The notes under the pieces: generated by a model | What the model was told of the DNA's origin: nothing | What the model saw: only the letters and a program-made list of their open reading frames with translations | Databases searched by the model: none | NCBI RefSeq assembly: GCF_000829465.1 | Contig: NZ_JXAL01000001.1 | Span: 124,001 to 188,000, forward strand | Length of the DNA: 64,000 nt | Reading direction: 5' to 3' | Origin: Cohnella kolymensis | GTDB lineage: Bacteria > Bacillota > Bacilli > Paenibacillales > Paenibacillaceae | Program-made: the position numbers and the translations under genes | In this document: positions 26,649-59,149 of the stretch, in pieces | Layout of the letters: each line of letters begins with the position of its first letter | Numbering within the stretch: the first letter of the stretch is position 1

Positions 26649-27164
26649 TTAGATACTGCCTAATTCTGTGATGGTTTTCAGCACATGCTGGATTAAGTCC
26701 GGGATATCCCCCATCTGGTCCTCGTTCACTTTGCGATGAAATTTCATTTCGACGATATCCGTGTAGACTGCAGGCTCCTCACCATATACAAAGCTTATAA
26801 TTTGCGTCGGCCGATGCTCCTGTTTCCATATTGCCTGCAGCACTTCCTCCACTTGCGGACACTGTTCCTGCGCGTCCTCAACTTGCAGGTAAAACCTCAA
26901 GGTTAGCGTACAGCCCGGCGTTTCACCCGGTATTTCCAGTATCTCGACCGCCAAATCTTCTAACGAGGCTTGCAGATGAATTTCCCCCGTCACTTTCGAT
27001 TGGTCCGCCAATTCGAACTGCAGGGTGAACTCCCTCGACATGTTCGACATTACCAGCTGATCCGTCCGATTGATGATCTTGATTCTCCCGCTCAGATTAT
27101 CCAAGTCATAAAGCTGATTTTCAAATGCAACCTTCAAATTTTCAAAGACGGTAGGGTCGAACAT
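26649..27164 (-). CDS. uncharacterised protein, 171 aa
   Basis: A mixed alpha/beta soluble protein starting MFDPTVFENLKVAFENQLYD. Strands such as LSGRIKIINRTDQLVM and REFTLQFELADQSKVTGEIHL suggest a beta-rich fold, followed by a C-terminal helix (DIPDLIQHVLKTITEL). No transmembrane helix. It is 31 bases downstream of speD on the same strand and may be co-transcribed with it. I do not recognise the family; I make no claim on function. Confidence 0.6.
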   Translation of the reverse strand: MFDPTVFENLKVAFENQLYDLDNLSGRIKIINRTDQLVMSNMSREFTLQFELADQSKVTGEIHLQASLEDLAVEILEIPGETPGCTLTLRFYLQVEDAQEQCPQVEEVLQAIWKQEHRPTQIISFVYGEEPAVYTDIVEMKFHRKVNEDQMGDIPDLIQHVLKTITELGSI

Positions 27165-28108: not shown

Positions 28109-28373
28109 CTTTTGTCGATATCCCGTCGGTTCAGGAAGGATTAGTATAGCGCCGCCTTTTGACGATATCCCGTCGGTTCAGGAAGCTTTGCTATGGCGCA
28201 GTCTTTTGACGATATCCCGTCGGTTCAGGAACGAGAATTTGAGCTTTGGCCTCCTTTCCTGAGTGGTAGGGATATCGACAAAAGAGGCGGAAAACAACTA
28301 CACCTGAGCGAGAGGGATATCGACAAAAGGGCGGAAAACAACTACACCTGAGTGAGAGGGATATCGACAAAAG
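28109..28373. repeat. REP-like repeat cluster 1: three direct and three inverted copies
   Basis: Six copies of a roughly 28-base unit with core CTTTTGWCGATATCCC and end TTCAGGA. Direct copies are at 28109-28136, 28156-28184 and 28203-28231; inverted copies at 28257-28284, 28303-28329 and 28347-28373. The two halves could pair as a long imperfect stem. The unit also occurs at 38.4-39.7 kb and 49.4-49.6 kb. No gene lies in this 395-base gap between speD and the aminotransferase. Spacing and lack of identical spacers exclude a CRISPR array. Confidence 0.87.
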
Positions 28374-38308: not shown

Positions 38309-38373
38309 AGTTGCAGCACATGTGCCGAAGCCCTTCAAGAGACGCTCTTGCAAGGGCTTCACCATTTTCATCG

Positions 38374-38448
38374 CCTTTTGACGATATCCCCTCCATTCAG
38401 GAATCTGTCTCCCACAACGCCTTTTGACGATATCCCCTCCATTCAGGA
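38374..38448 (+). repeat. REP-like repeat cluster 2, left arm: two direct copies
   Basis: Copies at about 38374-38402 and 38421-38448, CTTTTGACGATATCCC ... TTCAGGA. They stand just upstream of the IS1595-like gene, with the inverted copies just downstream. Confidence 0.87.
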
Positions 38449-38561
38449 AACCTGTCGCTGTCATCCACCAATCAAAACATTTTAACTAATTTTAGATTGA
38501 AATAGGAACATATGTTTGGTAAAATAAGGAGAACATACATTCGGGTGTGAGGTGCATTATC

Positions 38562-39482
38562 ATGTCGATGGATGAGGTAAGTTTTGAGTCGTTTTGCAGC
38601 AGGTTTGCAACGGAAAAAGACTGTGTTCAAGCGTTGTATCAGGCTAAATGGCCTAACGGTTTTTGCTGCCCGCGCTGCCGGCACCCGTACGCATATGTCA
38701 TCTCCACTCGCAGGCTGCCGCTCTATGAGTGTCAAGCTTGTCGGTCGCAAACCTCGCTCATCTCGGGCACTGTGATGGAGGGCAGCCGCACGCCTTTGCG
38801 TCTTTGGTTTCAAGCGATCTATCTACATGCGCGGCCGGTTGGCATCAATGCGCTGCAACTTTCACGAATTATCGGTGTGACTTATAAGACAGCATGGTTG
38901 ATCTGTCATAAAATTCGTCATGCTATGAGCTTGGCAGAACGTGACCAGCTATTGAGTGGTATCGTTTCTCTCTCTGACGCTGTATATAGTGATCGTCCTG
39001 TAGCTTCCCTCGAATGGCACAAACAGGAACAGCCATTAATCATCGGAGCTTCGAGTGAAGAAACAGGGAAGGTCGTCCGCATTAAAATAAAGAAACAGAA
39101 CAAAGTCCCGTTAACAAGCCGATATGATAGCCCAGATCAAGAGATCTTTATCCGTGAAAATGTTGAGCCGACCGCGCTAGTACGGAGAATAGTGAAGCGA
39201 AGAATCGGCCGGCACCGTGACCTTGCGTTAGTCCGACTTTGCCTTGAAGCTGCGAGTTATCTAGGACAGACTTTCCATGGTATTGGGCCGAAACACTTAC
39301 AGGTATATCTGGATCAATACTGTTATATTTGGAACCGTCGCAAACAAGCTGCGTTCTTGGAATTATTACAGTTTTGCGCCATTACACGAAAGATTACCTA
39401 CCCCAAGTTAACAGGCTCTACCCCTGTACGTTCCTCCCGGCCTAAACGACACTATGGCGTGGCATCAACCCTGGTCGGTTAG
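38562..39482 (+). CDS. orphan IS1595-like (ISXO2-type) transposase-derived protein
   Basis: About 306 residues. N-terminal zinc ribbon CPRCRHPYAYVISTRRLPLY then CQACRSQTSLISGTVMEGS, then RLWFQAIYLHARPVGINALQLSRIIGVTYKTAWLICHKIRHAM, which is the IS1595 N-terminal domain. The C-terminal TFHGIGPKHLQVYLDQYCYIWNRRK also matches. In between only the first Asp-like position (SLSDAVYSD) is visible; the second catalytic Asp block and its TDG-like segment are missing. No terminal inverted repeats of an IS are seen; instead REP-like repeats flank it on both sides. ATG 38562 has GAGG upstream. Confidence 0.78.
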   Translation: MSMDEVSFESFCSRFATEKDCVQALYQAKWPNGFCCPRCRHPYAYVISTRRLPLYECQACRSQTSLISGTVMEGSRTPLRLWFQAIYLHARPVGINALQLSRIIGVTYKTAWLICHKIRHAMSLAERDQLLSGIVSLSDAVYSDRPVASLEWHKQEQPLIIGASSEETGKVVRIKIKKQNKVPLTSRYDSPDQEIFIRENVEPTALVRRIVKRRIGRHRDLALVRLCLEAASYLGQTFHGIGPKHLQVYLDQYCYIWNRRKQAAFLELLQFCAITRKITYPKLTGSTPVRSSRPKRHYGVASTLVG

Positions 39483-39557
39483 TCCCTTCACACCTCGTCC
39501 CTATTGAGGTCTGTTCTTATCTGCGTAATTCGCCTGCCGGATGCTGCTGCCTTGACC

Positions 39558-39687
39558 CCTGAGCCGATGGGATATCGTCAAAAAGGCGAAAACTGCCCTC
39601 CCTTCTTCCCTGAGCCGATGGGATATCGTCAAAAGGGGCGCAAACTGACCTCCCTGCTCCCCTGAGTCGATGGGATATCGTCAAAAG
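39558..39687 (-). repeat. REP-like repeat cluster 2, right arm: three inverted copies
   Basis: Inverted copies at about 39558-39585, 39609-39635 and 39661-39687 (CCTGAGCCGATGGGATATCG form). With the left arm they bracket the transposase-like gene. The rest of the gap 39688-39778 shows no gene. Confidence 0.87.
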
Positions 39688-39778
39688 GAAGATAAAACAC
39701 ATACACAATATGAAAAACCTCCAGATCCTCTGCGGCGAACGCGCGTTAGAGTGAACTGGAGGTGGATTATGATTGCCT

Positions 39779-49384: not shown

Positions 49385-49619
49385 CCTTTTGACGGTATCC
49401 CCTCCGTTCAGGAGAATATGTGGTGCTCACGGTCCTTTTGTCGATATCCCCTCGGTTCAGGAGCGGGCCAGCAACAGTTGAGGGATCAGGCGCAGATTCA
49501 AGGTTCAAGAATCGCTTAAGCATTAGAGCAGTTGGAGCACGTTCCCAGAGCCTAGGCAATCCGATGCTTAAAAGCCTAATGCTCGTTCAGCCTGAGCGGA
49601 AGGTATACCGACAAAAGGG
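49385..49619. repeat. REP-like repeat cluster 3: two direct and one inverted copy
   Basis: Direct copies at 49385-49413 and 49434-49462, inverted copy at 49591-49619. The gap 49232-49641 holds these repeats and otherwise nothing gene-like. Confidence 0.8.
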
Positions 49620-57607: not shown

Positions 57608-59149
57608 TTATTGAAGAGTAACGAGCGCATGCAATTGATCCAGCATTTCCGCGCTTTTCATCCATTCCGCAACATTGTGAAAATCATTCGAGAGCACCCG
57701 GTCGTCATCCACGAACGCCACCTTTTCCCGGCAGCGGTTGTACAGCAGTTTCGTTCCTTTGCCGAGCTGCCGCGGATCGCGGAAGTCGATCGCCTGGGCG
57801 GCGCAAATGAGCTCGATCGCCAGCACCGAGTATGCGTTGTCTACGATTTGCTTCGCTTTACGCGCCGCGATTGTCCCCATGCTCACATGATCCTCTTGAT
57901 TCCCGGAAGACGGAATCGAATCGACGCTCGCCGGATGGGCCAGCGATTTATTCTCGGACACAACGGCCGCAGCCGCATATTGAGCGATCATCAGCCCGGA
58001 TTGCAGCCCCCCTTTTTTCGTGAGAAAAGCGGGCAGCTTCTCGTTCAAATGGGGATTCACCAGCCGCTCGATGCGCCGCTCCGAAATGTTAGCAAGCTCT
58101 GACGCACAGACGGACAGATGGTCCATCGCCAGCGCAATCGGCTGCCCGTGGAAATTGCCGCCCGAGATGACACGCCCTTCCTCTGCAAAAATAAGCGGGT
58201 TGTCAGTCGCCGAGTTGATCTCGATTTCCAGCTTATCCGCGATATAGCCCAGTGCGTCCCGGCTCGCGCCATGCACTTGCGGGATGCAGCGGAGAGAATA
58301 CGCGTCCTGCACCCGAAGCTCTCCCTGACGCGTCATGAGCCTGCTGCCGAGAGTGAGTCGACTGATGTTATCGGCAACCTGCAGCTGTCCCTGATGGGGA
58401 CGGATACGATGCGTCAAGGGATCGAACGCATCCCGCACAGCCAGTAGCGCTTCGCATGTCAAAGCCGCCGCACAATCGGCCCATCGGGCAAGCTGCTGAG
58501 CGTCCCAGCAGGCGAGCGTGCCTACCGCGGTCATGACCTGCGTGCCGTTGATCAGCGCCAGCCCCTCTTTGGCCTCCAGCGTGATCGGCTGAATGCCCGC
58601 AGCAGCCATCGCTTCAGCGCCCGTCATCCTTACTCCTTCATAATAAGCCTCGCCTTCGCCGATCAGAACGAGCGCCAAATGCGACAGCGGAGCCAAGTCT
58701 CCGCTTGCTCCGAGCGAGCCTTTCTCCGGAATGACCGGCACGACTCTCTCGTTGAGCATGTCGACCATCGTCTCCAACGTTTCCGGACGAATGCCGGAAT
58801 AGCCGAGCGACAAAGCATTGATCCGAAGCAGCAAAATCGCTCGCACGACTTCTTCCGGAAAAGGATCCCCGATCCCGCAGGAGTGACTGCGTATCAGATT
58901 GAGCTGCAGCGATTTGGCGTCCTCGCTGGAGATATAGGTATCACTGAATTTTCCGAACCCGGTTGTCAGTCCGTAGACCGCTTTTTTCTCTAGCAGCAGC
59001 TTTTCCACATACTCACGCGTACGCTTCACCTTTTCAAGGCTTTCCCCGCTAATGTCCACCTTCAGTCCGAATCGCGCCACCTGAACCACATCTTCGATCG
59101 TCAATGAACTCCCGTTCACCGTTACCGTCCGTTCCATCGTTTGCTGCAT
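57608..59149 (-). CDS. hutH: histidine ammonia-lyase
   Basis: First enzyme of histidine breakdown, releases ammonia to give urocanate. 513 residues from ATG 59149 (GGGTGGGATT upstream). The MIO cofactor triad Ala148-Ser149-Gly150 lies in GSLGASGDLAPLSH; other active parts are YGLTTGFGKF, NGTQ and SSGNQEDHVSMG. It is the first enzyme gene after the HutP-controlled terminator. Confidence 0.95.
   Translation of the reverse strand: MQQTMERTVTVNGSSLTIEDVVQVARFGLKVDISGESLEKVKRTREYVEKLLLEKKAVYGLTTGFGKFSDTYISSEDAKSLQLNLIRSHSCGIGDPFPEEVVRAILLLRINALSLGYSGIRPETLETMVDMLNERVVPVIPEKGSLGASGDLAPLSHLALVLIGEGEAYYEGVRMTGAEAMAAAGIQPITLEAKEGLALINGTQVMTAVGTLACWDAQQLARWADCAAALTCEALLAVRDAFDPLTHRIRPHQGQLQVADNISRLTLGSRLMTRQGELRVQDAYSLRCIPQVHGASRDALGYIADKLEIEINSATDNPLIFAEEGRVISGGNFHGQPIALAMDHLSVCASELANISERRIERLVNPHLNEKLPAFLTKKGGLQSGLMIAQYAAAAVVSENKSLAHPASVDSIPSSGNQEDHVSMGTIAARKAKQIVDNAYSVLAIELICAAQAIDFRDPRQLGKGTKLLYNRCREKVAFVDDDRVLSNDFHNVAEWMKSAEMLDQLHALVTLQ

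Follow-up and report, generated by a model that had tools for sequence, protein, structure and literature searches.

In the window, that is the whole stretch of 64,000 nucleotides of Cohnella kolymensis DNA analysed here, a gene for a protein derived from an IS1595 transposase is enclosed by inverted arms of a dispersed repeat, and the two arms of such a gene carry the same repeat variant. We consider it rather probable that this represents an SOS-linked protein of IS1595 descent which has lost its DDE site, together with multiplied end-like repeats, and that the whole would spread without any cutting of its own and work in the manner of REPIN-RAYT. The layout is already known from REPIN-RAYT; the protein and any chemistry must differ, since a protein without a cutting site necessarily has a different chemistry. 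Indeed, the family is neither a RAYT, there being no Y1 domain in the window protein, nor any longer a catalytic IS1595 transposase.

Arms, arrays and repeat number

The gene (38562..39482, plus strand) encodes 306 amino acids with a zinc ribbon, an HTH and an RNase-H-like core without the DDE residues. The repeat search placed two plus-strand units before it, at 38374..38401 and 38420..38447, and three inverted, minus-strand units after it, at 39558..39586, 39609..39636 and 39661..39688, which confirms the two direct and three inverted copies described in the original prediction; the unit is 28 bp long at this locus. The two further clusters without a gene that had been announced for the window were found as well, one at 28109..28373 with three plus and three minus units, the innermost pair being 30 nt apart, and one at 49386..49617 with two plus units and one degenerate minus unit. 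With up to 3 mismatches, CTTTTGWCGATATCCC matches the window 15 times against 1.16 expected and a maximum of 4 in 100 shuffles. Fourteen of these 15 matches fall in three clusters, including the arrangement of two plus units, gene and three minus units at 38375-39687, and the fifteenth, at position 26746 with 3 mismatches, looks like chance. An Rfam scan of the window at gathering scores gave no known RNA family.

In the home genome 31 copies of the repeat (at most 1 mismatch) were counted against 0 of the reversed pattern. Because that pattern includes a stop triplet, this control understates the background, and genomes lacking a strong match to the gene served instead. The gene is not the lone orphan it had been taken for: the home genome has 7 matches to it, two of them partial, and one paralogue on contig C24 is 87% identical and has its own arms. 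Two repeat types occur, CTTTTGnCGATATCCC and CTTATGtCCACTATCCC, each around its own group of paralogues, and most of the gene-less clusters fetched from this genome fit one of the types, with one cluster (L261) fitting neither and one (L265) being mixed. The largest gene-less array fetched (L268, home genome C22:7700-10600) belongs to the second repeat type and runs through 8 plus units followed by 6 minus units. A partial homologue of the home genome (L272, C1:91500-94000; 36% over query residues 6-128) has no repeat units nearby.

Homologues are encoded by 47 of 60 related genomes, most of which have more than one. In all, 152 loci were assembled from the best locus of 30 genomes, 36 named loci, six of the home genome and 80 further places from a longer list; 150 of their genes end in a stop codon, 124 are non-redundant and 122 are full length and have flanks, the partial genes L101 and L102 having been set aside. 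Arms were scored within 500 bp of the gene by a strict core, [TA][AT]TCCC-N6-TCAG. As to whether the gene is always flanked by the arms, both were present at 106 of the 122 non-redundant loci, one at 15 and none at 1, and this last locus (L096) carries an inverted pair whose core is a variant. Upstream units numbered 312 in plus and 2 in minus orientation and downstream units 0 in plus and 180 in minus, counts that are not independent, the 122 loci being related, and the stretches 900-1400 bp away from the same genes hold only 8 core matches. Each arm is made of 1-6 units at the gene loci. A one-strand bias of the repeats in one genome (G037) turned out to be an artefact of listing, its four fetched gene loci having both arms.

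The repeat variant differs from paralogue to paralogue and is matched between both arms of a gene. An inverted match of at least 12 bp between the upstream and downstream 400 bp is found at 69 of 122 loci and a direct one at 4 of 122, and arms taken from different loci gave the same inverted match in 110 of 1000. TATCCC and TCAG are near-constant because the search pattern selects them; the 14 bases outside these motifs differ between paralogues, yet agree between the two arms of one gene. Own arms agree at 8.57 of the 14 variable positions (n=107), arms of other paralogues in the same genome at 6.32 and arms from other genomes at 5.08; the own arm is the best match among paralogues in 62.5 of 98 cases (31.0 expected). 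Furthermore, repeat similarity tracks protein similarity with a Mantel r of 0.53, a value reached by 0 of 1000 permutations.

Among neighbouring units at the 122 gene loci, 204 pairs are ++, 88 --, 1 +- and 2 -+. In the clusters of the home genome, where neighbours within 400 bp were counted and isolated matches left out, the corresponding numbers among the matches listed are 17, 20, 10 and 0. From these orientation counts the arrays point inward, with two exceptions. Unit spacing peaks at 46-48 and 55-57 bp; a fixed helical spacing was rejected, no clear 10.5-bp period being seen. Most units of the home genome stand in longer arrays rather than in doublets. The innermost pair is 21-30 nt apart in five of ten gene-less clusters measured, and each of these five doublets gave a hairpin on folding (z -5.5, -2.9, -5.2, -6.1 and -5.6), the innermost doublet of 28109-28373 giving z -5.63. 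A palindrome in each unit was discarded, as six stretches of single arms or units gave z from 1.17 to -0.83, no better than shuffles. Hence the description of the repeats as palindromes does not hold for the single unit, which is not clearly palindromic, and it is the plus/minus doublet that forms a hairpin.

Repeat number follows the gene, not uniformly across groups. Copies of TATCCC-N6-TCAG were counted in 246 genomes of the order, a strong match to the gene being defined as E <= 1e-40. The 84 genomes with a strong match have a median of 29 copies (range 6-280) and the 162 others a median of 15 (range 1-36; p = 5e-15), so that the expected dependence of copy number on the gene is seen overall, with only 35 of the 84 exceeding the maximum (36) of the other set. 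In genus g21 the split is complete, with 67-148 copies in six gene-bearing genomes against 12-20 in eight genomes that lack a strong match, a weak one being present in two of them (G229, G267). Contrasts are weaker in g34, g17 and g29 (p 0.004, 0.02 and 0.05), and the difference is not significant in f7 and g23 (p 0.16 and 0.17). In family f6 the medians are 27 and 12 with many gene-bearing genomes at background, and such genomes at background repeat counts are common in families other than f1. Overall, homologues did not lack the repeat, nor were repeats as abundant in genomes without the gene.

Loss of the catalytic residues

The assignment of the protein to an IS1595-like type with a zinc ribbon was upheld, PF12760 (zinc ribbon; E 9e-11, 42 bits over a cut-off of 25.4) and NF033547 (IS1595 transposase; 80.1 bits against a cut-off of 75) both scoring above cut-off. 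The Y1/HUH domain (PF01797) was not found in the window protein, PF12760 being the sole match at E <= 1. The predicted structure is RNase-H-like (pLDDT 89), and Foldseek returned no PDB match at E <= 0.001 for the model. A search for a remaining DDE site in 141 family proteins found the site gone: compared with DDE-type relatives, the first catalytic Asp is kept in 12, the second in 0, the Asn in 7 and a Lys in 4, and both Asp are present in 7 of 7 of those relatives. The segment around the second Asp, reported missing from the window gene, is deleted in the family proteins, and no conserved acidic set was found in the RNase-H core of the family. The zinc ribbon, the HTH and the RNase-H scaffold are kept despite the catalytic loss. 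Invariant residues of the family include T107, Y108, K109, T110, K244 and Y249; T107 and K109 mostly differ in the DDE-type sequences compared, and Y108, T110, K244 and Y249 are also present in most of them.

The protein is under selection in most pairs measured, with dN/dS of 0.11-0.30 in 7 of 9 measurable gene pairs and higher values, 0.71 and 0.47, in two close copy pairs. The DDE-less proteins form one clade with moderate support (0.88; weak, at 0.32, when the catalytic half of the protein is removed), and the catalytic residues were probably lost at the base of the family. A match at E <= 1e-40 was found in 9 of 398 genomes of the phylum, the home genome among them. From the others 12 loci were taken, six of which have a full readable frame (L291, L300, L292, L301, L293 and L296) and keep the Asp residues; the strict repeat core is absent from all 12. 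Given these six full-frame loci outside the order, the DDE-less form is seen, in this sample, only in the order of Cohnella and Paenibacillus, Paenibacillales. Carriage by plasmids or phages was rejected, as no close relative was found among 311 matching plasmid records, all under 60% identity (the best-ranked at 31.7% and annotated IS1595), and 2 matching phage records, both partial.

Promoter box, repeat ends and spread of the unit

A promoter-like site, TTGAAA-17-TAAAAT (38497..38525, plus strand; 10 of 12 consensus letters), precedes the gene, such sites numbering 2 in the stretch scanned against 1.7 expected. In its spacer a motif match gives a LexA/DinR-type (SOS) box, GAACATATGTTT (38506..38517, plus strand), and a second, imperfect box-like site, GAACATACATTC, was read from the sequence at 38531..38542 (plus strand). 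The Bacillus LexA operator is given as GAACN4GTTC in the part of the source drawn on (PMC4234289). GAACN4GTTY lies within 120 bp upstream in 120 of the 122 genes, 80 of them having the perfect GAACN4GTTC, and was found in 0 of 122 in each of the controls (580-700 bp upstream, in the gene, downstream, and shuffled upstream DNA). Two RAACN4GTTY boxes are present in 47 of 122 homologues, and in the promoter consensus of 110 family members, TTGAAATaaGAACATATGTTTGGTATAAT, the box sits in the promoter spacer. The putative box points to LexA control of the gene. It also occurs upstream in 11 of 17 IS1595 loci outside the family (e.g. L291, L300, L292, L301, L293 and L184) and in 16 of 19 further family loci of the order, 3 of 19 lacking one, and thus looks inherited from the IS ancestor and kept; the box is not special to the family and may be an inherited relic. 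Two further GAACN4GTTC sites stand in the window, at 1603-1614 and 59106-59117. The former, considered as an SOS reference from the same genome, has holin-like and cupredoxin-like ORFs (by eye) and no evident SOS gene as neighbours.

The repeat unit appears to share its core and spacing with IS1595 ends (TATC-N8-TCAG). Among the IS1595 loci outside the family, 8 of 18 have an inverted pair of this kind with one mismatch allowed, and 5 of the 8 have it with none; several of the 18 are partial or frame-broken, and two (L291 and L300) share one genome. Ten gave no pair, at least one of them (L183) being cut by a contig end. A Rhodococcus plasmid IS1595 copy among the 8 has the ends TTATCCGGTTAGATCAGGT / TTATCCGGTTAGGTCAGGT, and the L291 and L300 copies are bounded by TATC-N8-TCAG ends; among thirteen IS1595 loci detected with PF12762, the strict repeat core was matched 0 times. 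The arrays have the look of IS ends that were multiplied, and the repeats would descend from such ends. The statement that the gene lacks visible IS ends should accordingly be amended, as the repeats themselves carry the IS1595 end core, multiplied.

The gene-bearing unit has spread in the past. The window locus and the C24 copy have in common a whole unit of ~ 1.4 kb (38371..39765, plus strand) with unrelated outer flanks, blastn of L031 against L097 giving 85% over 1409 columns from L031:1310 (38371) to L031:2704 (39765). The first repeat begins 3 nt inside the shared block; at the other end the block runs on for ~ 77 bp after the last repeat, to a point shortly after a terminator-like hairpin (CCTCCAG...CTGGAGG and a T run; 39718..39762, minus strand) that was identified by eye and is absent from the computed site list; read leftward, it lies inside the shared unit and faces the array. 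In G024 and G030 an upstream gene is followed by the same downstream gene with neither the gene nor repeats between, the neighbours presumably encoding an aminotransferase and a binding protein; 37 genus genomes were searched, and apart from the home genome only these two have the upstream aminotransferase at E <= 1e-150. Such empty sites would mean insertion here or loss there, insertion being the simpler reading because two relatives lack the unit. The sequences flanking the two window clusters without a gene have their matches at differing positions in G024 and G030, and the core is found in 0 of 9 fetched loci.

Multiple copies were found in other genomes as well. G020 has four whose gene sides are 96-98% identical and whose outer flanks are unrelated; their arrays have 3, 5, 6 and 3 units, and a contig end cuts each of the four. 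The L042/L084 gene pair has a dS of 0.014; in the recent pair L071/L084 the transposition boundary is blurred by a short indel. In G031 at least 16 dispersed copies are about 86-92% identical in the pairs listed. The shared element of these copies (L215-L226, L231-L234) ends outside the arrays among the matches listed, with a left hairpin, CCGGAGGCTTTGCCTCCGG, and at the right end a long hairpin which differs between some copies, its pairing apparently being kept (by eye). Between near-identical copies in G020 and L093/L094, homology stops at about the innermost repeats, which suggests exchange at the repeats, although fast array turnover would look the same; it is these stops that point to recombination as a possible driver. 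The target-site duplication of the IS1595 family is 8 bp, and two loci outside the family (L291 and L301) look consistent with one by eye. In the 65 nt outside the outermost units, 13 of 109 loci share at least 7 bp against 15.6 expected; as no target-site duplication marks the outermost units, the limits of the moved unit are blurred. At 230 flanks, terminators were directed towards the array 32 times (24 on the right side, 8 on the left) and away from it 4 times, compared with 2 and 4 times at 228 flanks in a control 400 bp further out; this may reflect either insulation or insertion next to terminators.

Known systems and competing explanations

In the passages cited, REPIN-RAYT is described as a gene flanked by inverted copies of a dispersed repeat, with a distinct repeat class per paralogue and the RAYTs as single copy (PMC3116915, PMC2817692), and how such pairs escape extinction is described as an open question (PMC3116915). 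To the extent of these descriptions, the Cohnella family resembles it in inverted flanking repeats, one class of repeat for each paralogue, hairpin-forming inverted doublets, tandem arrays and more than one unlike paralogue in a genome, and its gene-less doublets have the REPIN layout (PMC3116915). It differs in that the protein is derived from IS1595 (DDE/RNase-H) whereas that of RAYTs is Y1/HUH, and in that catalytic residues are lost, single units are not palindromic and arrays point inward; its gene copies multiply and have an SOS-type promoter box, unlike the RAYTs described as single copy. The original prediction of a REP/RAYT-like layout built on a DDE-derived, IS1595-like protein is supported by the arms and the copy number; it did not anticipate the likeness of the repeats to IS1595 terminal repeats, nor the SOS-type box. 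With IS1595 insertion sequences the family shares the zinc ribbon, the HTH, the overall fold, the end core (8 of 18 loci) and the box (11 of 17 loci), but it has no catalytic residues and no target-site duplication excess, its single end repeat has become arrays of 1-6, and dispersed gene-less arrays are present. Correia and RUP elements, named as MITEs (PMC2817692), are as far as described there likewise short, non-autonomous inverted-repeat elements between genes. Unlike MITEs, the Cohnella repeats have no detected target-site duplications, and their dedicated partner gene itself lacks catalytic residues. Tn7 and Mu carry arrays of transposase-binding sites at their ends, several inverted copies per end, and are similar in this respect, whereas the Cohnella unit is one gene without a catalytic subunit and its arrays also occur without the gene. 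Among the open PMC titles and abstracts listed, none dealt with an IS1595-derived protein tied to dispersed repeats.

In the reading we prefer, an IS1595 insertion sequence, probably already with an SOS-type box, would have been stripped of its catalytic residues at the root of the family, and its terminal inverted repeats would have multiplied into inward arrays beside the gene, gene-less arrays and hairpin doublets across the genome. The protein would bind its cognate repeats through the zinc ribbon and HTH and pair both arms, while LexA would repress the gene and DNA damage release it. Having no cutting site, the protein may hold the arrays together or open them as hairpins, and RecA-dependent recombination or replication could then copy arrays, at times with the gene, into new arrays. 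Binding, SOS control and the mode of spread are parts of this scheme that we infer from sequence. It is quite possible, and we put it forward tentatively, that the family took up the REPIN-RAYT way of life independently from a DDE lineage, with catalysis lost, terminal repeats turned into cognate hairpin arrays, and mobility under SOS through host recombination or replication.

A catalytic IS1595 transposase that still recognises TATC-N8-TCAG ends could instead have moved the same loci in trans, as defective IS1595 copies or MITE-like remnants, since the end core is common to IS1595 relatives outside the family and strong PF12762 matches exist in some Cohnella genomes. However, 14 of 37 genus genomes are without PF12762 (E <= 0.001) and hold at least 40 core copies (381 in G020), one of the 14, G024, being 78% complete; together with the single DDE-less clade, the purifying selection on it, the agreement of repeat variants and the lack of a target-site duplication excess, this makes movement in trans unlikely. 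Domestication of the protein as a DNA-binding regulator or nucleoid-type protein, the repeats being operators or anchor sites dispersed in the past, would fit the lost catalysis, the conserved fold and DNA-binding parts, the SOS-type promoter, the arrays beside terminators and the lack of close plasmid or phage relatives. We nevertheless regard it as quite unlikely, given that repeats multiply with the gene in G031 (at least 16 copies), G020 (96-98%) and L042/L084 (dS 0.014) and that the neighbourhood is found without the insert in two relatives.

Gene-bearing copies do spread, and invariant residues exist of which T107 and K109 mostly differ in DDE-type sequences, so that an autonomous transposon of new chemistry, catalytically active through unrecognised residues and with the arrays as its ends, was also considered; an RNase-H core without a conserved acidic set, and the presence of Y108, T110, K244 and Y249 in most DDE-type sequences, render it very improbable. 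It is scarcely credible that the IS1595-like gene is a bystander and that a Y1 (RAYT) transposase encoded elsewhere in the genome spreads the repeats as ordinary REPs: the doublets and arrays are REPIN-like, but the repeat variant follows the IS1595-like paralogue, copy number follows that paralogue's presence, and the repeats share their core with IS1595 ends.

The known example of dispersed bacterial repeats maintained by a dedicated protein of transposase descent is REPIN-RAYT, and a further pairing of this kind, built on an unrelated protein, lets required features (cognate inverted doublets, a dedicated binder) be told from dispensable ones (Y1 chemistry). That the gene multiplies though its protein lacks catalytic residues raises the question of how the gene moves, and its SOS-type box would offer a simple means of turning it on. 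As the window gene scores as 'IS1595 family transposase', such a system is easily hidden in annotation. Judging from the 11 of 17 loci outside the family that have the box, IS1595 transposition in Bacillota may often be SOS-controlled.
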